Part shown: positions 48,519 to 59,035 of the stretch, one piece after another
Layout: each line of letters starts with the position of its first letter
How positions within the stretch are numbered: position 1 is the stretch's first letter
Source: Paracoccus sanguinis
GTDB lineage: Bacteria; Pseudomonadota; Alphaproteobacteria; Rhodobacterales; Rhodobacteraceae
Direction: 5' to 3'
Length of the DNA stretch: 64,000 bases
Assembly (NCBI RefSeq): GCF_900106665.1
Contig: NZ_FNNA01000003.1
Span: 186,001-250,000, forward strand
Position numbers and translations under genes: made by a program
The notes under the pieces: model-generated
Told to the model about the DNA's origin: nothing
Seen by the model: the letters and a program-made list of their open reading frames with translations, nothing else
Databases searched by the model: none

Positions 48519-49901
48519 ATGCAATGGCATCCCGATCCCCAGCGGCTGGCCCGTCCTGTCTACCTTTCGCTGGCAGAGCAGTTCACCCAGGCCATCCAGA
48601 CGGGGCGGCTGGGTGCGGGAACACGGCTGCCGCCGCAGCGCGCGCTGGCGGACCGGCTCGGCGTTTCGCTGCAGACCGTGTCGCGCGCCTATGATGAGCT
48701 GGGCCGCCGCGGCATGATCGCGGGCGAGGTCGGGCGCGGCACCTTCGTGCTGCCGCAGTCGGCCGAGGCGCCCGCGCCCTATCTGAACCGGCGGACCGGC
48801 GGGGTGGTGGATCTGTCGATCCTCAAGCCCGTTACCGACGCGCTGCATCTTCAGAAGATGCGTGAGGGGCTGGCCTGGCTGGCCGAGAACCTGCCGCCGC
48901 AGGCGGCGCTGTCGTTCCGGCCGACCTCGGTGATGCCTGAGCATCTCAAGACCGCCGCCGCGTGGCTGGCGCGTGGCGGGATCGACGTCGCGCCCGAGCA
49001 GATCGTGATCACCGATGGCGCGACGCCGGCGATCACCACGGCGGTGATGACGGCCGTGCCGCCCGGCGGGACGCTCGCCGCGGCCGAGCTGACCCACCAC
49101 CTGCTGCAACCCCTGACCCGCTATCTCGGCCTGCACCTCGAGCCACTGCCGCTGGACGACCACGGGATCGTGCCGGCCGCGCTCGAGCAGGCGGCCCGGA
49201 CCAAGGGGCTGTCGGCGCTCTACCTGCAGCCCGCGGCCATCAACCCGCGGGGCGTGCTGTCGCCGGCCGACCGGCGGGCCGAGATCGTGGCCATCGCCCG
49301 GCGCCACAACCTCGCGCTGATCGAGAACGACATCCTGAACCAGCTTCTGACCGACCGCCCGACGCCCTACGCGGCGCTGGCGCCTGAGCGGGTGCTGCAC
49401 ATCAACGGCTTCACCAAGATCAGCCTGCCGGGGCTGCGGGTGGCCTATCTGACGCTGCCCGAGCGGCTCGCGCGCGCAGCCGCCAACCGCCACCTCGTGA
49501 CGAACTGGATGGCGACGCCGATCATGGTCGAGCTACTCGGCCGCTGGATCGCCGACGGGACCATGACCGGGCTGATCGGCTGGCAGCGCCAGGCGCTGGC
49601 CGAACGGCACGCCATCGCCCGCGCGGTGCTGCCGGAGGGCCTGTGCCGGTCCCACGCCCAGGCGCTGCACCTCTGGCTCGAGCTGCCGGCCGGCATCCGG
49701 GAGGAGGAGTTCGTCGCCATGGCGCACCGGCGCGGCGTCGCGGTTGCCTCGAGCCAGTCGTTCCGCATCGGCGGGCAGCCCGGACCGGGGGCGTTGCGCA
49801 TCGCACTGGGTCCGCCGAGCCGCGACGATCTGAGCCGCGGCCTCGCCACCGTGGCCGAGCTGCTCGCCGAGTCGGACGAGCCGATCCTGCCGCTGGTCTG
49901 A
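48519..49901 (+). CDS. enuR: MocR-type transcriptional regulator of ectoine use (EnuR-like)
   Basis: 460 residues. The N-terminal GntR-type winged helix (YLSLAEQFTQAIQTGRLGAGTRLPPQRALADRLGVSLQTVSRAYDELGRRG, about 15-75) is joined to an aminotransferase-fold domain with the PLP lysine at residue 300 (NGFTKISLPGLR). In the characterised Ruegeria protein EnuR, PLP on the equivalent lysine senses ectoine-breakdown intermediates and relieves repression. It heads the ectoine island, with matching operator motifs on both sides of the gene. Confidence 0.88.
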   Translation: MQWHPDPQRLARPVYLSLAEQFTQAIQTGRLGAGTRLPPQRALADRLGVSLQTVSRAYDELGRRGMIAGEVGRGTFVLPQSAEAPAPYLNRRTGGVVDLSILKPVTDALHLQKMREGLAWLAENLPPQAALSFRPTSVMPEHLKTAAAWLARGGIDVAPEQIVITDGATPAITTAVMTAVPPGGTLAAAELTHHLLQPLTRYLGLHLEPLPLDDHGIVPAALEQAARTKGLSALYLQPAAINPRGVLSPADRRAEIVAIARRHNLALIENDILNQLLTDRPTPYAALAPERVLHINGFTKISLPGLRVAYLTLPERLARAAANRHLVTNWMATPIMVELLGRWIADGTMTGLIGWQRQALAERHAIARAVLPEGLCRSHAQALHLWLELPAGIREEEFVAMAHRRGVAVASSQSFRIGGQPGPGALRIALGPPSRDDLSRGLATVAELLAESDEPILPLV

Positions 49902-49991: not shown

Positions 49992-50777
49992 ATGGACCAG
50001 CCAGTCATCCGGGTCGAGAATCTCAGAAAGTCGTTCGGCGCGCTGACCGTCATCGACGGCTTGTCGTTCGACGTGGCGCGCGGCGAGAAACTGGCGCTGA
50101 TCGGGCCATCCGGATCTGGGAAGACGACCATCCTGCGCATCCTCATGACGCTCGAAACGATCTCGGGCGGGCGCATCGAGATCTGCGGTGAGCCGCTGTT
50201 CCACATGCGCCGGGGCGGGGCCGAGGTGCCCGCCGACGAGGCCCATCTGCACAGGATGCGCCGCCATATCGGCATGGTCTTCCAGCACTTCAACCTGTTC
50301 CCGCACAAGTCGGTGCTCGACAACATCACCCTCGCCCCGATCCTGACCAAGGGCGAGACGCGCCCGGCCGCCGAGGCGCGCGCCCGCGAGCTGCTCGAGA
50401 TGGTCGGGCTGTCGGACAAGGCATCGGCGATGCCGGCGCAGCTGTCGGGCGGACAGAAGCAGCGCGTGGCGATCGCCCGTGCGCTGGCGCTCAACCCGCA
50501 GATCATGCTCTTCGACGAGGTCACCTCGGCCCTCGACCCCGAGCTGGTCGAGGAGGTGCTCGAGGTGATGAAGCGGCTCGCCGCCGAGACCGACATGACC
50601 ATGCTGCTCGTGACCCACGAGATGGGCTTCGCGCGCGAGTTCGCCGACCGGGTGCTGTTCTTCGACGGCGGCCGGATCTGCGAGCAGGGCCCGCCCGAGC
50701 AGCTTTTCACCAATCCCACGCAGGAGCGCACCAGAACCTTCCTGCGCAAGATCATCGCCGCGGGTCACCGCGTGTGA
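49992..50777 (+). CDS. ehuA: Ectoine/hydroxyectoine ABC transporter ATP-binding protein
   Basis: 261 residues of the polar amino-acid ABC ATPase family. Walker [13 protein letters not shown]-loop [12 protein letters not shown], signature [16 protein letters not shown], Walker [16 protein letters not shown] and H-loop [13 protein letters not shown]. The segment [19 protein letters not shown] between the Walker A region and Q-loop is an insertion seen in EhuA proteins. It supplies energy for ectoine import with EhuB and the EhuCD permease. Confidence 0.9.
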
Positions 50778-50805: not shown

Positions 50806-51645
50806 ATGAAAGCCAGTATCCTCGCGGCGTTCGCCATCGCCGTCCCGGTCCTTGCGGCGCCGACGCTCGCCGCGGCCGACAAGCTCGACGACCTGAAATC
50901 GGCCGGCAAGGTCACGATCGCCATCGGCAATGAGCCGCCCTTCACCGCCATCGCCCCCGATGGCGCCGTCTCGGGCGCGGCGCCTGACGTGGCCCGCGCG
51001 GTGTTCCAGAAACTCGGCGTCGATTCGCTCGGCGCGCAGGTGATCGAGTACGGCGCAATGATCCCGAGCCTGCAGGCGGGCCGCGTGGACGCCATCGCCG
51101 CCGGGCTGTTCATGAAGCCCGAGCGCTGCGCCGCGGTCGCCTATTCCGAGCCCGTGCTCTGCGACGCCGAGGCGATGCTGGTCGCCAAGGGCAACCCCAA
51201 GGGCTTCAAGTCCTACGCCGACATCGCCGCGGCCGACGGCGCCCGCATCGGCGCGCCCGGCGGCGGCACCGAGGAGAAGCTGGCGCTCGAGGCGGGCGTG
51301 CCGCGAGACCGGGTAATCGTGGTGCCGGACCCGCAGTCGGGGCTGAAGATGCTGCAGGACGGCCGGCTTGACGCCTATTCGCTGCCGGTGCTGTCGATGA
51401 GCGACCTGATGAAGAAAGGCGGCGAGGGCAGCGTCGACCTGATCGCGCCGGTCGAGGGGGCGCCGGTCTCGTGCGACGGCGTGGCGTTCAACCGCAACGA
51501 CGCCGCCCTGCGCGACGCCTTCGACGTCGAGCTGGCGAAGCTGAAGGAGTCGGGCGAGTTCGCGAAGATCGTCGAGCCCTACGGCTTCTCGGCCCAGGCC
51601 GCGCTGTCGACGACCCGCGACAAGCAGTGCGCCGCGCCGCAGTGA
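50806..51645 (+). CDS. ehuB: Ectoine/hydroxyectoine-binding periplasmic protein
   Basis: 279 residues, extracellular solute-binding family 3. Signal peptide MKASILAAFAIAVPVLAAPTLAAA (about 24 residues), then KVTIAIGNEPPFTAIAPDG, the N-terminal lobe of EhuB with NEPPFT near the ligand pocket, and GAPGGGTEEKLALEAGV where EhuB proteins place the second-lobe contact. Two cysteine pairs are visible (RCAAVAYSEPVLCDAE and SCDG...KQC). Its place between ehuA and the permease supports the ectoine call over other amino acids. Confidence 0.88.
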   Translation: MKASILAAFAIAVPVLAAPTLAAADKLDDLKSAGKVTIAIGNEPPFTAIAPDGAVSGAAPDVARAVFQKLGVDSLGAQVIEYGAMIPSLQAGRVDAIAAGLFMKPERCAAVAYSEPVLCDAEAMLVAKGNPKGFKSYADIAAADGARIGAPGGGTEEKLALEAGVPRDRVIVVPDPQSGLKMLQDGRLDAYSLPVLSMSDLMKKGGEGSVDLIAPVEGAPVSCDGVAFNRNDAALRDAFDVELAKLKESGEFAKIVEPYGFSAQAALSTTRDKQCAAPQ

Positions 51646-51812: not shown

Positions 51813-53123
51813 ATGGGCGACTGGGCAGGCTATCTGACGCTGATCCTCGACGGCGCCTGGGTCACGGTCAGGCTGACCGTGATGGGCGCCGCGGTGGCGC
51901 TGGTGTTCGCCTTCCTCGCCGGCCTGGGCCGCCTGTCCCGGCACGCCGCCGTCCGCTGGCTCGCCACCGCCTACATCGAGTTCTTCCGCGGCACCTCGAT
52001 CTTCGTCCAGCTGTTCTGGATCTACTTCGTGCTGCCGCTGACTGGCGTCACCTTGACCCCGATGCAGGCGGGGGTGATGGCCCTCGGGCTGAACGTCGGG
52101 GCCTACGGGGCCGAGGTGGTGCGCGGCGCGATCCTGTCAGTCCCGCGCGACCAGTATGAGGCGACGACGGCCCTCAACCTCACGCGCTGGCAGCGGATGC
52201 GGCACGTCATCCTGCCCCAGGCGCTGCCGCTGATGGTGCCGACCTTCGGCAACAACGCCATCGAGCTGCTCAAGGCGACCTCGGTCGTGTCGCTCATCTC
52301 GCTCTCGGACATGACCTTCCAGGCCCAGGTCGTGCGCTCGCAGACCGGCAACACGCTGATCCCCTTCGTGACCGTGCTGGTGATCTATTTCGCGCTCTCG
52401 ATGACGATCGCCGCGGCCGTGGGCGCGCTCGAGCGGCGTCACCCGCGGGCTGGACGGGGTGCGCTGATGGATTGGGACTGGTCCTTCGCATGGTCGATCA
52501 TGCCCCAGCTTCTCGCCGGGGTCCGCATCACCATCCTCGCCACGATCCTCGGCGCGGCGGTGGCGGCGGTGCTGGGGCTGGTCTTCGCGATCCTGCGCCG
52601 TTCGCCGAACCGCTGGATCGCCCGGCCCACCGCCTTCGTCGTGCAGTTCATCCGGGGCACGCCGCTGCTGGTGCAGCTCTATTTCATCTTCTACGTGCTG
52701 CCCGACATCGGCATCCGCCTGCCCGCGCTGGCTGCGGGCGTGCTGGGCATGGGGCTGCACTATGCGACCTATGCGGCCGAGGTCTATCGCGGCGGCATCG
52801 AGGCCGTCCCCCGCGGCCAGTGGGAGGCCGCCCGCGCCACAAACCTGACCGCCCGCCAGACCTGGGTCCACGTCATCCTGCCGCAGGCGCTGCCGCCGAT
52901 GATCCCGGCGATGGCCAACTATCTGCTGGCGATGTTCAAGGAAACGCCGCTGCTGTCGGCGATCACCGTGCTGGAACTGATGAACCAGGCGCGCTCGGCC
53001 GCCAACTTCTCGTATCGCTATGTCGAGCCGATGACGCTGGTGGGGGTGTTCTTCCTCGTCATCAGCCTGATCTCGGTGGCGATCCTGCGCTGGCTCGAGC
53101 GCCGCTATGCGAGGCGCGCATGA
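51813..53123 (+). CDS. ehuCD: Ectoine ABC transporter permease: EhuC and EhuD joined in one frame
   Basis: 436 residues containing two full BPD_transp_1 permease domains, each usually a separate ~220-residue protein. EhuC part (1-~210): AAYIEFFRGTSIFVQLFWIYF-like segment, EAT...WQRMRHVILPQALP (EAA loop). EhuD part from Met219 (MDWDWSFAWSIMPQLLAG): FIRGTPLLVQLYFIFY and TWVHVILPQALPPMIPAM. The +1 frame at 52441-52467 reads TRGLDGVR then TGA, an expected EhuC ending, and this TGA overlaps the EhuD ATG (TGATG at 52465-52469). So a small indel near 52437-52440 (real or a sequencing error) probably fused two genes. The ATGA at the end overlaps eutA. Confidence 0.85.
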   Translation: MGDWAGYLTLILDGAWVTVRLTVMGAAVALVFAFLAGLGRLSRHAAVRWLATAYIEFFRGTSIFVQLFWIYFVLPLTGVTLTPMQAGVMALGLNVGAYGAEVVRGAILSVPRDQYEATTALNLTRWQRMRHVILPQALPLMVPTFGNNAIELLKATSVVSLISLSDMTFQAQVVRSQTGNTLIPFVTVLVIYFALSMTIAAAVGALERRHPRAGRGALMDWDWSFAWSIMPQLLAGVRITILATILGAAVAAVLGLVFAILRRSPNRWIARPTAFVVQFIRGTPLLVQLYFIFYVLPDIGIRLPALAAGVLGMGLHYATYAAEVYRGGIEAVPRGQWEAARATNLTARQTWVHVILPQALPPMIPAMANYLLAMFKETPLLSAITVLELMNQARSAANFSYRYVEPMTLVGVFFLVISLISVAILRWLERRYARRA

Positions 53124-53899
53124 GCGGCGCGGGGTTGGGCGGGGGCGTGACGCTCGACGACCGGCCGATGCGGGCCCGGGTGGGGCTGGTGGTGCTGGCC
53201 ACCGACCACACGACCGAGCCGGATTATGCCCGCATCGTCGCCCCGCAGGGGATCGGCGTCTATGCCACCCGCATCCCCTTTGCGAACCCCGTCACGGCAG
53301 AAAGCCTTGCCGCGATGGCCCCCGATATCACCGCCGCCGCGGCGCTGATCCTGCCGGGCGAGGCGCTTGACGCGGTGGTCTATTCCTGCACCTCGGCCTC
53401 GGTCGGGATCGGGGACGCCGCGGTGCGGGCGGCGCTTGGCGCGGGCAAGCCGGGGGCGCGGGCGATCACCCCGATTTCGGCCGCCTTTGCGGCCTTCGAC
53501 GCCCTCGGCGCCCGGCGAGTGAGCCTGCTCACCCCCTATGACGACGACACGACGGCGGCGATGGCGGGCTGCCTCGAGGCCGGGGGCGTCTCTCTCGACG
53601 CCGTCACCGGCCTTGGTCTGACCGACGACCGCGACATGGCCCGGCTGAGCCGCGCGACCCTCGTCGAGGCCGCCGCCCGCGCCACCGCACCCGGGTCCGC
53701 GGCCCTGTTCGTCGCCTGCACCGCGGTCCGCGCCGCGGCGTGGGTCGAGGCGCTCGAGGCCTCTGCGGGCGTCCCGGTCGTCACCGCCAACCTCGCCACC
53801 GCCTGGGCCGCGCTGCGGCTCTGCGGCCACGCAGGCGCGGCCGCCCCGGGGCGGCTGATGACCCTGCCCCTCAACGACACCTACCCGACAACGCCCTGA
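53120..53899 (+). CDS. eutA: EutA, Asp/Glu racemase-superfamily protein of ectoine catabolism
   Basis: 259 residues from the ATG at 53120, overlapping the permease stop. It is of the maleate isomerase/arylmalonate decarboxylase fold: TDHTTEPDYARI near the start and two cysteines in the expected places (Cys90 in VVYSCTSAS, Cys200 in LFVACTAV). EutA normally acts with EutB and EutC on the hydroxyectoine branch, yet neither follows here, so its present role is uncertain. Confidence 0.87.
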   Translation: MSGAGLGGGVTLDDRPMRARVGLVVLATDHTTEPDYARIVAPQGIGVYATRIPFANPVTAESLAAMAPDITAAAALILPGEALDAVVYSCTSASVGIGDAAVRAALGAGKPGARAITPISAAFAAFDALGARRVSLLTPYDDDTTAAMAGCLEAGGVSLDAVTGLGLTDDRDMARLSRATLVEAAARATAPGSAALFVACTAVRAAAWVEALEASAGVPVVTANLATAWAALRLCGHAGAAAPGRLMTLPLNDTYPTTP

Positions 53900-53923
53900 C
53901 CGCGCCCCAACCCCAGGTGCCCC

Positions 53924-55105
53924 ATGCCCGACATCCCGCTGAACTTCTCCCGTGCCGAATACGCCGCCCGCCTCGACAAGACTCGCCGCGCGATGGAGTC
54001 GGCCGGGGTCGAGCTGCTGGTCGTCACCGACCCCTCGAACATGAACTGGCTGACCGGCTATGACGGCTGGTCCTTCTACGTCCCGCAATGCGTGATCGTC
54101 CCCCCGCACGGCGAGCCGCTGTTCTTCGGCCGGGGCATGGACGCGGTCGGCGCGCGCTTCACCGCCTGGATCGGTGAGGAGTCGATCATCGGCTATCCCG
54201 ACGACTACGTGATGAACCCCGCCAAGCACCCGATGGAGCTCTTGGCGCAGATCCTGACCGACCGCGGCTGGGGGCGGCCCAGGGTCGGGGTCGAGATGGA
54301 CAACTACTGGTACACCGCGCGCAGCCATGCGGCGCTGGCGGCCGGGCTGCCGGACGCGCGGCTGAGCGACACGACCGGCCTCGTGAACTGGCAGCGGGCG
54401 GTCAAGTCGCCCACCGAACTCGACTACATGCGCAAGGCCGGCGAGATAGTCACCGCGATGCACGCCCGCATCCTCGAGGTGGTGGCGCCGGGCATCCGCA
54501 AGAACGACCTCGTGGCCGAGATCATGGCCACCGGCGTCCGCGGCGTCCCCGGAGCGGGCGGCGACTACCCGGCCATCGTGCCGCTGCTGCCCTCGGGGCG
54601 CGAGGCGGCGGCGGCCCACCTGACCTGGGACGACCGGCCGATGCGCGCAGGCGAAGGCACCTTCTTCGAGATCGCCGGCTGCCATCACCGCTATCACTGC
54701 CCGCTGTCGCGCACCGTGTTCCTCGGCAAGCCGCCGCAGGTCTTCGTCGAGGGCGAAAAGGCCGTGCTCGAGGGGATGGAGGCCGGGCTCGAGGCCGCCC
54801 GCGCCGGCAACACCTGCGAGGAGTTCGCCGGGGCCTTCTACGCCGTCCTGAAGAAGCATGGCATCACCAAGGACGGCCGCACCGGCTATCCGATCGGGGT
54901 CAGCTATCCGCCCGACTGGGGCGAGCGCACGATGTCGCTGCGCCCCGGCGACCGGACCGTGCTGGAACCCGGCATGACCTTCCACTTCATGACCGGGCTC
55001 TGGTCGGACGACATGGGGCTTGAGATCACCGAGAGCCTGGTGATCACCGAGGGCGCGCCCGAGCTGCTGGCCAACGTCCCGCGCCAGCTCTTCGTCAAGG
55101 ACTAG
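53924..55105 (+). CDS. doeA: Ectoine hydrolase (DoeA/EutD)
   Basis: 393 residues, peptidase M24 (pita-bread) fold with a creatinase-like N domain. MNWLTGYDGWSFYVPQCVIV and VGVEMDNYWYTARSHAALAAGLP are typical of DoeA/EutD. In the catalytic domain, FFEIAGCHHRYHCPLSRTVFLG replaces metal ligands of true aminopeptidases with the residues used by this hydrolase. It opens the ectoine ring to N-acetyl-diaminobutyrate. It starts 24 bases after eutA. Confidence 0.92.
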   Translation: MPDIPLNFSRAEYAARLDKTRRAMESAGVELLVVTDPSNMNWLTGYDGWSFYVPQCVIVPPHGEPLFFGRGMDAVGARFTAWIGEESIIGYPDDYVMNPAKHPMELLAQILTDRGWGRPRVGVEMDNYWYTARSHAALAAGLPDARLSDTTGLVNWQRAVKSPTELDYMRKAGEIVTAMHARILEVVAPGIRKNDLVAEIMATGVRGVPGAGGDYPAIVPLLPSGREAAAAHLTWDDRPMRAGEGTFFEIAGCHHRYHCPLSRTVFLGKPPQVFVEGEKAVLEGMEAGLEAARAGNTCEEFAGAFYAVLKKHGITKDGRTGYPIGVSYPPDWGERTMSLRPGDRTVLEPGMTFHFMTGLWSDDMGLEITESLVITEGAPELLANVPRQLFVKD

Positions 55106-55109
55106 GGCG

Positions 55110-56198
55110 ATGGAGGCGACGCTCCGCCCCTCTCCGGTGCTGGCCACGGTCGATTACGACCGGCCGGGCGTTCAGCACGGGTTCCTGCGCCTGCCCTATA
55201 GCCGCGACGACAGCGCCTGGGGGTCGGTCGTGATCCCGATCACCGTGATCCGCGGCGGCGAGGGGCCGACGGCGCTGTTGACCGGCGCCAACCACGGCGA
55301 CGAATACGAGGGGCCGCTGGCGCTCTTCGACCTCGCGCAGACATTGCGCCCCGATGAGGTGGTGGGCCGGGTCATCATCGTCCCGGCGATGAACTATCCC
55401 GCGTTCCTGGCCGGCACCCGGACCTCACCCATCGACCGCGGCAACCTCAACCGCAGCTTTCCGGGCCGCCCGGACGGCAGCGTGACCGAAAAGATCGCGG
55501 ACTACTTCCAGCGGGTGCTGCTGCCGCTGGCGGACGTGGTGCTCGACTTCCATTCAGGCGGCAAGACGCTGGATTTCCTGCCGTTCTGCGCGGCCCACAT
55601 CCTGCCCGGCGAGGGGCCCGAGGTGCGCGCGCAAGAGGAACGGGCCTTCGCGCTGGTGCGCGCCTTCGCCGCGCCGTTCAGCGTGCGGATGCTCGAGATT
55701 GACGCGATCGGGATGTATGACACCGCCGCCGAAGAGATGGGCAAGGTATTCGTCACGACCGAGCTGGGGGGCGGCGGGACTGCGACGGCGCGCACGGTTC
55801 GGATCGCGCGCGAGGGTCTGCGCCGGGTGCTGGCCGCCGCCGGGGTGACCCGCGGCCCGGGCGCTCCCGCGCCCGCGCCGCTGCCGCCGACCCGCTGGCT
55901 CGACATGCCCGACGCGGACTGCTTCGTCTTCGCCGAGGACGGCGGGCTGGTCGAGTTCCTGGCCGATCTGGGCGACAGCGTGGCCGCCGGCGACCCGGTG
56001 GCGCGGCTGTGGCCGCTGGGCCGCACCGGCGTCGCCCCCTCCGAGCTGACGGCGGCGCGGGCGGGCGTGCTCTGCGCGCGCCACGTCCCCGGAATCGTCA
56101 AGCCCGGCGACTGCGTCGCGGTCCTCGCGGTCGAGGTCGCCGACGCCTCGCAGCTCGAGGGTCCGGGCCCGCGCGAGCTCGAGGGGGTGGTGCCATGA
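55110..56198 (+). CDS. doeB: N-acetyl-L-2,4-diaminobutyrate deacetylase (DoeB/EutE)
   Basis: 362 residues, succinylglutamate desuccinylase/aspartoacylase-like zinc enzyme. The metal site is GANHGDEYEGPLALFDL (H-x2-E) with VVLDFHSGGKTLDF supplying the second histidine; RGNLNRSFPG is the substrate loop. A C-terminal beta domain (from about residue 260) is usual in the family. It removes the acetyl group to give diaminobutyrate. It starts 4 bases after doeA and overlaps the next gene by 4. Confidence 0.92.
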   Translation: MEATLRPSPVLATVDYDRPGVQHGFLRLPYSRDDSAWGSVVIPITVIRGGEGPTALLTGANHGDEYEGPLALFDLAQTLRPDEVVGRVIIVPAMNYPAFLAGTRTSPIDRGNLNRSFPGRPDGSVTEKIADYFQRVLLPLADVVLDFHSGGKTLDFLPFCAAHILPGEGPEVRAQEERAFALVRAFAAPFSVRMLEIDAIGMYDTAAEEMGKVFVTTELGGGGTATARTVRIAREGLRRVLAAAGVTRGPGAPAPAPLPPTRWLDMPDADCFVFAEDGGLVEFLADLGDSVAAGDPVARLWPLGRTGVAPSELTAARAGVLCARHVPGIVKPGDCVAVLAVEVADASQLEGPGPRELEGVVP

Positions 56199-57652
56199 CC
56201 GCGCTCGCGCTGAGTGACCCGACCCTTCTGCGGCGTGAGGGGTTGCTGGACGGACGCTGGCAGGGCGCCCCGCAGAGCTTCCCCGTCACCGACCCCGCGA
56301 CCGGCTCGCGCGTGGCCGACGTCGCCCGGCTCGATGCCGACGCGGCCCGCACCGCGGTCGAGGCCGCCCATCGCGCCTTCGACGACTGGGCCTGGGCGCT
56401 GCCGCAGACCCGCGCGACCTTGCTGCGGCGCTGGTTCGACCAGATCACCGCGCACCGCGAGGACCTCGCCCTCATCATGGTGGCCGAGCAGGGCAAGCCT
56501 CTGTCAGAGGCGCGGGGCGAGATCGACTATGCCGCGAGCTTCGTCGAGTTCTACGCCGAAGAGGCGCGCCGCCCGAACATCGAAAGCGTCACCTCGCATC
56601 TTGCCACGGCCGAGATGGAGCTGTGGCGCGAGCCCGTGGGGGTGGCGGCGCTGGTCACGCCCTGGAACTTCCCCGCCGCGATGCTGACCCGCAAGGCGGC
56701 CGCGGCGCTGGCGGCGGGCTGCACGGTCGTGGCTCACCCCTCGGCCCAGACCCCGCTTTCGGCGCTGGCGCTCGCCGAACTGGCGCAGCGCGCGGGGTTT
56801 CCGCCGGGGCTCTTCAACGTCATTCCCGGAGACGCGGCCGAGATCGTCGGCGCATGGTCCGCGGCGCCGCGGGTCCGGGCGCTCAGCTTCACCGGCTCGA
56901 CCGAGATCGGGCGGCTCATCTACCGCCAGTCCGCGGATACCGTGAAGCGGCTGGTGCTCGAACTCGGCGGGCACGCGCCCTTCCTTGTCTTCGCCGAGGC
57001 CGATCAGGAGCTTGCGGTGGCCGAGGCGATCAAGGCCAAGTTCGCCACCTCGGGGCAGGATTGCCTCGGCGCCAACCGCTTCCTGATCGAGCGCCCGGTC
57101 TATGACGCCTTCTGCACCGCCTTCACCGCCCGCGCCCGGGCGCTGACGCTGGGACCGGGGATGGCGGATTGCGACCTCGGGCCCTTGATGAACGAGGCCG
57201 CCGTGGCCAAGCAGGAGGCGCAGGTCGCCGACGCGCTCACCCGCGGGGCGCGGCTACTCTGCGGCGGTGCGCGGGATCCGCAGGGGCCGCTTTTCTACCC
57301 GGCGACGGTGCTGGCCGACGTGCCGCCCGACGCGCTGATCTTCCATGAGGAGACCTTCGGCCCGGTCGCGGCCCTCGCCCCCTTCGACACCGAGGACGAG
57401 GCGGTGCGGATCGCCAACGACACCGAATACGGGCTGGTGGCCTATCTGCACAGCCAGGACCCGCGCCGGATCTATCGCCTGACCCGGGCGCTCGACTTCG
57501 GCATGGTCGCGGTCAACCGCACCAAGGTCACCGGCCCGCCCATCCCCTTCGGCGGGATGAAGCAGTCCGGCCTCGGGCGCGAAGGCTCGCGCCACGGGCT
57601 CGAGGCCTTCACCGACATCAAATACGTCTGCCGCGACTGGTCGGACGGTTAG
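56195..57652 (+). CDS. doeC: Semialdehyde dehydrogenase of ectoine catabolism (Ssd/DoeC)
   Basis: 485 residues, ALDH superfamily. VTPWNFPAAMLTRKAAAALAAG binds NAD(P), LSFTGSTEIG follows the nucleotide turn, VLELGGHAPFLVF carries the general-base glutamate and ATSGQDCLGANR the nucleophilic cysteine. It resembles succinate-semialdehyde dehydrogenases; in this cluster it should oxidise aspartate semialdehyde to aspartate. The ATG overlaps the doeB stop (ATGA). Cofactor preference is not readable from sequence. Confidence 0.88.
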   Translation: MTALALSDPTLLRREGLLDGRWQGAPQSFPVTDPATGSRVADVARLDADAARTAVEAAHRAFDDWAWALPQTRATLLRRWFDQITAHREDLALIMVAEQGKPLSEARGEIDYAASFVEFYAEEARRPNIESVTSHLATAEMELWREPVGVAALVTPWNFPAAMLTRKAAAALAAGCTVVAHPSAQTPLSALALAELAQRAGFPPGLFNVIPGDAAEIVGAWSAAPRVRALSFTGSTEIGRLIYRQSADTVKRLVLELGGHAPFLVFAEADQELAVAEAIKAKFATSGQDCLGANRFLIERPVYDAFCTAFTARARALTLGPGMADCDLGPLMNEAAVAKQEAQVADALTRGARLLCGGARDPQGPLFYPATVLADVPPDALIFHEETFGPVAALAPFDTEDEAVRIANDTEYGLVAYLHSQDPRRIYRLTRALDFGMVAVNRTKVTGPPIPFGGMKQSGLGREGSRHGLEAFTDIKYVCRDWSDG

Positions 57653-57661
57653 GAGGACCAC

Positions 57662-59035
57662 ATGCTGACGAATGACGAGCTGGCCCAGTGGGACCGCGAG
57701 GCGTTCATGCACCCCTCGACGCATCTGGGCCAGTTCGCCCGTGGCGAGGCGGCGCAGCGGATCATCCGCACCGGAGAGGGCAGCACCATCGTCGACCGCG
57801 ACGGCAACCGGCTGCTCGACGGGTTCGCGGGGCTCTATTGCGTCAACGTGGGCTATGGCCGCCCCGAGATTGCCGAGGCGATCGCCGCGCAGGCCCGCGA
57901 GCTGGCCTATTACCACGCCTACGCCGGGCACGGGTCCGAGGCGGCGATCACGCTGGCGCGGATGGTGATGGACCGCGCGCCCGCCGGCATGGCGCGGGTC
58001 TATTTCGGCCTCTCGGGGTCGGACGCGAACGAGACCAACATCAAGCTCGTCTGGTACTACAACAACATCCTCGGCCGGCCCGAGAAGAAGAAGATCATCT
58101 CGCGCTGGCGCGGCTATCACGGCTCGGGGCTGATGACCGGCAGCCTGACGGGGCTCGAGCTGTTCCACCACAAGTTCGACCTGCCGCTCGGGCAGGTGAT
58201 CCACACCGAGGCGCCCTATTACTACCGCCGTGCCGACACGGGCCTGACCGAGGCCGAGTTCACCGCCCATTGCGCCGCGGCGCTCGAGGCGCTGATCGCC
58301 CGCGAGGGGGCCGAGACCATCGCCGCCTTCATCGGCGAGCCGGTGCTCGGGACCGGGGGGATCGTGCCGCCGCCGGCGGGGTATTGGGACGCGATCCAGA
58401 CGGTGCTCGCCCGCCACGACATCCTGCTGATCGCAGACGAGGTGGTGACGGGCTTCGGGCGGCTCGGGACGATGTTCGGGTCGGACCACTACGGGCTGCG
58501 CCCCGACCTGATCACCTGCGCCAAGGGGCTGACCTCGGCCTATGCGCCGCTCTCGGCCAGCATCGTGGGTCAGCGGGTCTGGGACGTGCTGATGCAGGGC
58601 ACGGACGAGAACGGGGTGTTCGGCCACGGCTGGACCTACTCGGCCCACCCCATCGGCGCCGCGGCGGGCGTGGCCAACCTGCGGCTGATCGACGAGCTGG
58701 GGCTGGTCGGGAACGCCGCCCGGGTCGGCGGACATCTCACCGCCGCGATGCGCGCCGCGGTCGGCGACCACCCCCATGTCGGCGAGGTGCGGGGCGAGGG
58801 GATGCTCTGCGCGGTCGAGCTGGTCCGCGACCGCGACCCGCGCACCTTCTTCGCCGCCGACGAGGGCATCGGCGCCAAGGTCGTCGCCGCCATGCTGCGC
58901 CGCGGGGTGATCGCCCGGGCGATGCCGCAGGGCGACATCATCGGCCTCGCGCCTCCGCTGTGTCTGACCGAGGCCGAGGCCGACCGCATCGTCGCGGTGA
59001 CGGCCGAGGCGATCGGCGAAATCCTCGGGGCTTAG
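57662..59035 (+). CDS. doeD: Class III aminotransferase of ectoine catabolism (Atf/DoeD)
   Basis: 457 residues, omega-aminotransferase. [33 protein letters not shown] (PLP phosphate), [16 protein letters not shown] (PLP ring Asp) and [15 protein letters not shown] with PLP Lys288. A strong GGAGG ribosome site precedes the ATG. It should convert diaminobutyrate to aspartate semialdehyde. It is the last gene of the island; a 117-base gap without notable structure separates it from the convergent hydrolase gene. Confidence 0.9.

Follow-up and report, generated by a model that had tools for sequence, protein, structure and literature searches.

A joined ehuC–ehuD reading frame in a Paracoccus sanguinis ectoine operon is probably an ordinary frameshift where two genes overlap

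The 64,000-nucleotide stretch of Paracoccus sanguinis DNA analysed here (the window) carries a predicted ectoine uptake operon in which the two permease genes, ehuC and ehuD, are read as one open frame. Is this a single-chain transporter, a frameshift mutation, or an error in the draft sequence? The joined frame (51813..53123, plus strand, as are all features below) starts with ATG and runs for 436 codons to a TGA. As the first-pass annotation had claimed, it holds two complete permease domains, and the ORF list and both profiles agree on this: the EhuC domain occupies residues 5–212 of the joined chain (TIGR03004, 456.6 bits against a curated cut-off of 196.95), and the EhuD domain residues 221–432 (TIGR03003, 516.5 bits against 205.2).

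As delimited by the profile and by alignment to 20 relatives, the EhuC part runs for 208 codons up to the conserved ALER(R) (51813..52436). It has no in-frame tail x-TRGLDGVR and no stop of its own; the tail is readable out of frame only. In the +1 frame relative to 51813, positions 52441..52467 read ACC CGC GGG CTG GAC GGG GTG CGC TGA, that is, TRGLDGVR followed by a stop, and this TGA (52465–52467) overlaps the ehuD ATG (52467–52469) as TGATG, just as initially annotated. The relic octapeptide matches the conserved C-terminus of the relatives’ EhuC at every residue and is therefore more than a chance reading. Codon bias falls to non-coding values from approximately 52420 to 52456 and comes back up in ehuD, as expected for a shifted EhuC tail. 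EhuD, for its part, keeps both its own start codon and its ribosome site: the ATG at 52467, codon 219 of the joined frame, opens a gene of 218 codons plus TGA (52467..53123; sequence, profile and relatives concur), preceded by the Shine-Dalgarno-like GGGGTG at 52456..52461, which is the same in most Paracoccus relatives and, with an anti-SD duplex of −8.6 kcal/mol, is at least as strong as the sites of the other operon genes.

The ehuC–ehuD junction in relatives

Every one of the 85 distinct related loci compared has ehuC and ehuD as two genes. The junction is exactly TGATG in 18 of them, and in a further eight it consists of a stop, one base and then ATG. The proposal that TGATG is the ancestral state is borne out, and aligning the window with the relatives’ ehuC and ehuD revealed no clean in-frame fusion. 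A second ehuC–ehuD fusion was found in none of 125 genomes of the genus, 397 of a family sample and 385 of a class sample. While many loci match the whole query in one frame, they have an in-frame stop between the genes, which rules out the existence of many fused relatives. The closest relatives for the joined gene are Paracoccus, the best at 84% DNA identity, taken as Paracoccus aeridis NZ_SELD02000005.1. In several relatives (loci L079, L081, L085, L093 and L098) high G+C leaves the ehuD frame without a stop for over 220 codons upstream, across ehuC, and such genomes could mislead automatic gene callers too.

The relatives’ EhuC ends almost invariably in ER(R)-x-(T/S)RG(L)(D/E)G(V/I/T)R, with the codon before TRGLDGVR encoding mostly V but also A, L or M. 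In alignment the window reads GAGCGGC--GTCACCCGCGGG where relatives have two bases more, which places the change at 52436..52440, where relatives have one full extra codon (V/A/L/M); two bases of this x codon are missing from the window. The first-pass annotation had put an indel here and left open a one-base gain or a two-base loss; the position and the two-base loss hold, while the one-base gain is ruled out, as it would leave EhuC one codon shorter than that of every relative.

The displaced tail is conserved across Paracoccus, Phyllobacterium, Ensifer, Shinella, Jiella and Inquilinus, and from Paracoccus to Phyllobacterium TRGLDGVR is near-invariant even where the genes do not overlap. In most Paracoccus, the DGV codons of the tail (GACGGGGTG) also contain the GGGGTG of ehuD. 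Since the tail and its stop are intact in the other frame, one could imagine programmed recoding, with ribosomes shifting near 52436–52440 to yield some normal EhuC beside the long chain. The site, GAGCGGCGTCACCC, has no slippery heptamer, however, and a comparable arrangement occurs in no relative; we consider recoding hardly credible.

Mutation or base error

Our preferred reading, to which we give a probability of roughly 0.6, is that two bases were recently deleted about nine codons upstream of the ehuC stop, with the joined frame as a by-product rather than a single-chain permease pair. In the competing explanation, the strain has two normal genes and the draft contig is simply short of two bases. 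The draft genome (3.59 Mb) consists of 21 contigs, of which C15, 355,583 bases long, contains the window, and the sequence around the site is G+C-rich with short CG/GT repeats. Both the draft state and this composition favour an error. So does the good condition of the genes: relative to four relatives, dN/dS is 0.14–0.24 for ehuC and 0.18–0.23 for ehuD, no higher than between intact relatives, and the tail is fully consensus, with no trace of decay after the supposed shift. These values rule out long-term decay of ehuC and ehuD and, taken together with the consensus tail, imply that the change, if it is in the DNA at all, must be very recent.

Against an error speak the nature of the site, which is no homopolymer and differs by two bases rather than one, and the low frameshift background of the genome. 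We screened 1.26 Mb of the same genome with a two-sided frame test for a change of coding frame without a stop and start; the test needs approximately 50 coding codons per side and would not flag the ehuC–ehuD site itself. Of eight candidates, judged by eye, seven were normal junctions and one a plausible frameshift. An earlier dynamic-programming screen had made 15 calls, mostly artefacts at gene ends or stretch edges, and was replaced. The sole plausible frameshift left by the 1.26-Mb screen is located inside a coding region (L191:18024; G000:C11, near 318024). With no more than about one further plausible frameshift in the 1.26 Mb screened, indel errors are rare in this genome, and a random two-base error outside a homopolymer is correspondingly unlikely, with the caveat that a site chosen for its oddness is enriched for errors. 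On balance, we put a real mutation over a base error at about two to one and infer that the change is in the DNA rather than in the reads. Of the two options initially offered, error or natural fusion, an error in the draft is less likely than a real mutation given the low frameshift background, and a natural fusion that forces a heterodimer is not supported, no relative being fused.

Topology of the joined chain and predicted effects on transport

Could the long chain nevertheless be a selected, working single-chain EhuC–EhuD heterodimer? Both domains are complete, and the closest whole-chain fold match to the AlphaFold model is a single-chain permease, FbpB of Thermus thermophilus (9j4r; TM-score 0.66 by query length), which likewise has two permease domains in one chain and shows that single-chain type I permeases exist. 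The model itself is of low confidence, with a mean pLDDT of 64.5. Each half matches the five-helix fold of the Art(QN)2 permease 4yms and of MetI (TM-score 0.83 by target length), although in those two the permeases are individual polypeptides that dimerise.

There are five membrane helices in each half, of which three precede the EAA loop and two follow it; in type I importers the EAA coupling helix lies in the cytoplasm (PMC12136057). This arrangement would give each half an N-out/C-in orientation, a deduction from the number of helices on either side of the EAA loop and from general background; the open literature yielded no usable statement that HisQM or MetI is N-out. The linker ERRHPRAGRGAL is basic and has no hydrophobic stretch, and the joint ERRHPRAGRGALMDWDW is mostly basic with no membrane-crossing helix (pLDDT below 50 at residues 206–229). 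With the orientation so deduced, linker and helix count do not orient the two halves alike, and two five-helix N-out/C-in halves on a short basic linker would place the second half the wrong way round. In FbpB the helices of each half are presumably even in number, which allows its halves to be joined in the cytoplasm; the joined EhuC–EhuD chain has five per half.

Neither does the sequence carry the marks of a selected fusion: the fusion is kept in no relative, and the conserved EhuC tail has been swapped for an unrelated out-of-frame read, while the old tail shows no drift. Moreover, the ehuD frame at a TGATG junction is the very frame into which every −2 or +1 shift close to the ehuC stop leads, so that the join follows automatically from the shift and needs no selection. 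One of the two possible shift classes at TGATG would print such a fusion, and we see no evidence of selection for a heterodimer. The suggestion of a natural fusion forcing a 1:1 heterodimer in one chain is accordingly not upheld: no relative is fused, the join is automatic and the deduced topology is against it. We regard a working single-chain heterodimer as unlikely on the deduced topology, and a natural, selected fusion as very improbable overall; if EhuCD did work as a single chain, its second half would have to adopt an unusual topology, or the chain would have to be cleaved once inserted. The case looks like an ordinary frameshift where two genes overlap rather than a designed single-chain transporter, and it usefully illustrates that a −2 shift at TGATG can give rise to a false fusion in annotation.

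How would a two-base deletion affect transport? It would move the ribosome into the ehuD frame, so that EhuC would lack the conserved tail on the cytoplasmic side (VTRGLDGVR or close to it) and instead read HPRAGRGAL into EhuD, yielding a 436-residue chain. This chain is probably no single-chain permease pair, as the end of EhuC would be cytoplasmic while the start of EhuD must be periplasmic, and it may well misfold, being faulty in the EhuD half. As the ribosome site and ATG of ehuD are unchanged, some separate EhuD would probably still be made, with translation starting independently, although the usual stop-then-restart coupling of EhuC and EhuD would be gone. Judging from sequence, ectoine uptake is more likely to be lowered or abolished than enhanced. 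Provided that the DNA is real, the strain is a natural test of the function of TRGLDGVR, the strictly conserved EhuC tail, and of whether EhuD is made without stop–start coupling.

Operon context and loss of eutB and eutC

The gene order is enuR-ehuA-ehuB-ehuC/D-eutA-doeA-doeB-ssd-atf. Upstream of the permeases lie an enuR-like MocR/GntR regulator (48519..49901; Pfam GntR plus aminotransferase, same place in relatives), the ATPase gene ehuA (49992..50777; TIGR03005, 429 bits, above cut-off) and ehuB for the ectoine-binding protein (50806..51645; TIGR02995, 354 bits, above cut-off). Downstream are eutA (53120..53899; TIGR02990, 305.6 bits, just under the curated cut-off of 318), the ectoine hydrolase gene doeA/eutD (53924..55105; TIGR02993, 684 bits), the deacetylase gene doeB/eutE (55110..56198; TIGR02994, 565 bits), and open frames for an ssd/doeC-type aldehyde dehydrogenase (56195..57652) and an atf/doeD-type aminotransferase (57662..59035), with 78–83% and 82–84% identity, respectively, to same-place relatives. 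With EhuA and EhuB beside the permeases and ectoine catabolic genes downstream, the genes alone predict an EhuABCD importer of the Sinorhizobium meliloti type. The locus shares ehuA, ehuB, both permease domains, enuR, eutA, doeA, doeB, ssd and atf with the known EhuABCD plus eut/doe operon, in the usual Paracoccus order (PMC5924519), but differs from it in having ehuC and ehuD joined in a single frame, no EhuC tail, and neither eutB nor eutC.

The gap between eutA and doeA (53900..53923) is 24 bases in the window, as compared to approximately 1.9–2.1 kb in every relative with both genes placed; eutB and eutC, together about 2 kb, are found here in every relative checked. The corresponding stretch of P. 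aeridis contains two genes, about 332 and about 331 codons long, that look like eutB (threonine-dehydratase-like) and eutC (cyclodeaminase-like). No EutB or EutC scored above cut-off elsewhere in the window’s genome. The loss of eutBC, which leaves eutA on its own, is a second, independent lesion of the operon and adds a little to the plausibility of a real ehuC mutation. EutABC have been proposed to act on 5-hydroxyectoine (PMC5924519), a role since revised (PMC13188858), and eutBC loss has been reported in Halomonadaceae (PMC13188858). With eutB and eutC missing, the strain probably keeps the breakdown of ectoine and has lost that of hydroxyectoine. The dN/dS of eutA, 0.33–0.41, lies inside the between-relatives range of 0.20–0.52, thus pointing to no clear relaxation of eutA after the loss of eutBC.
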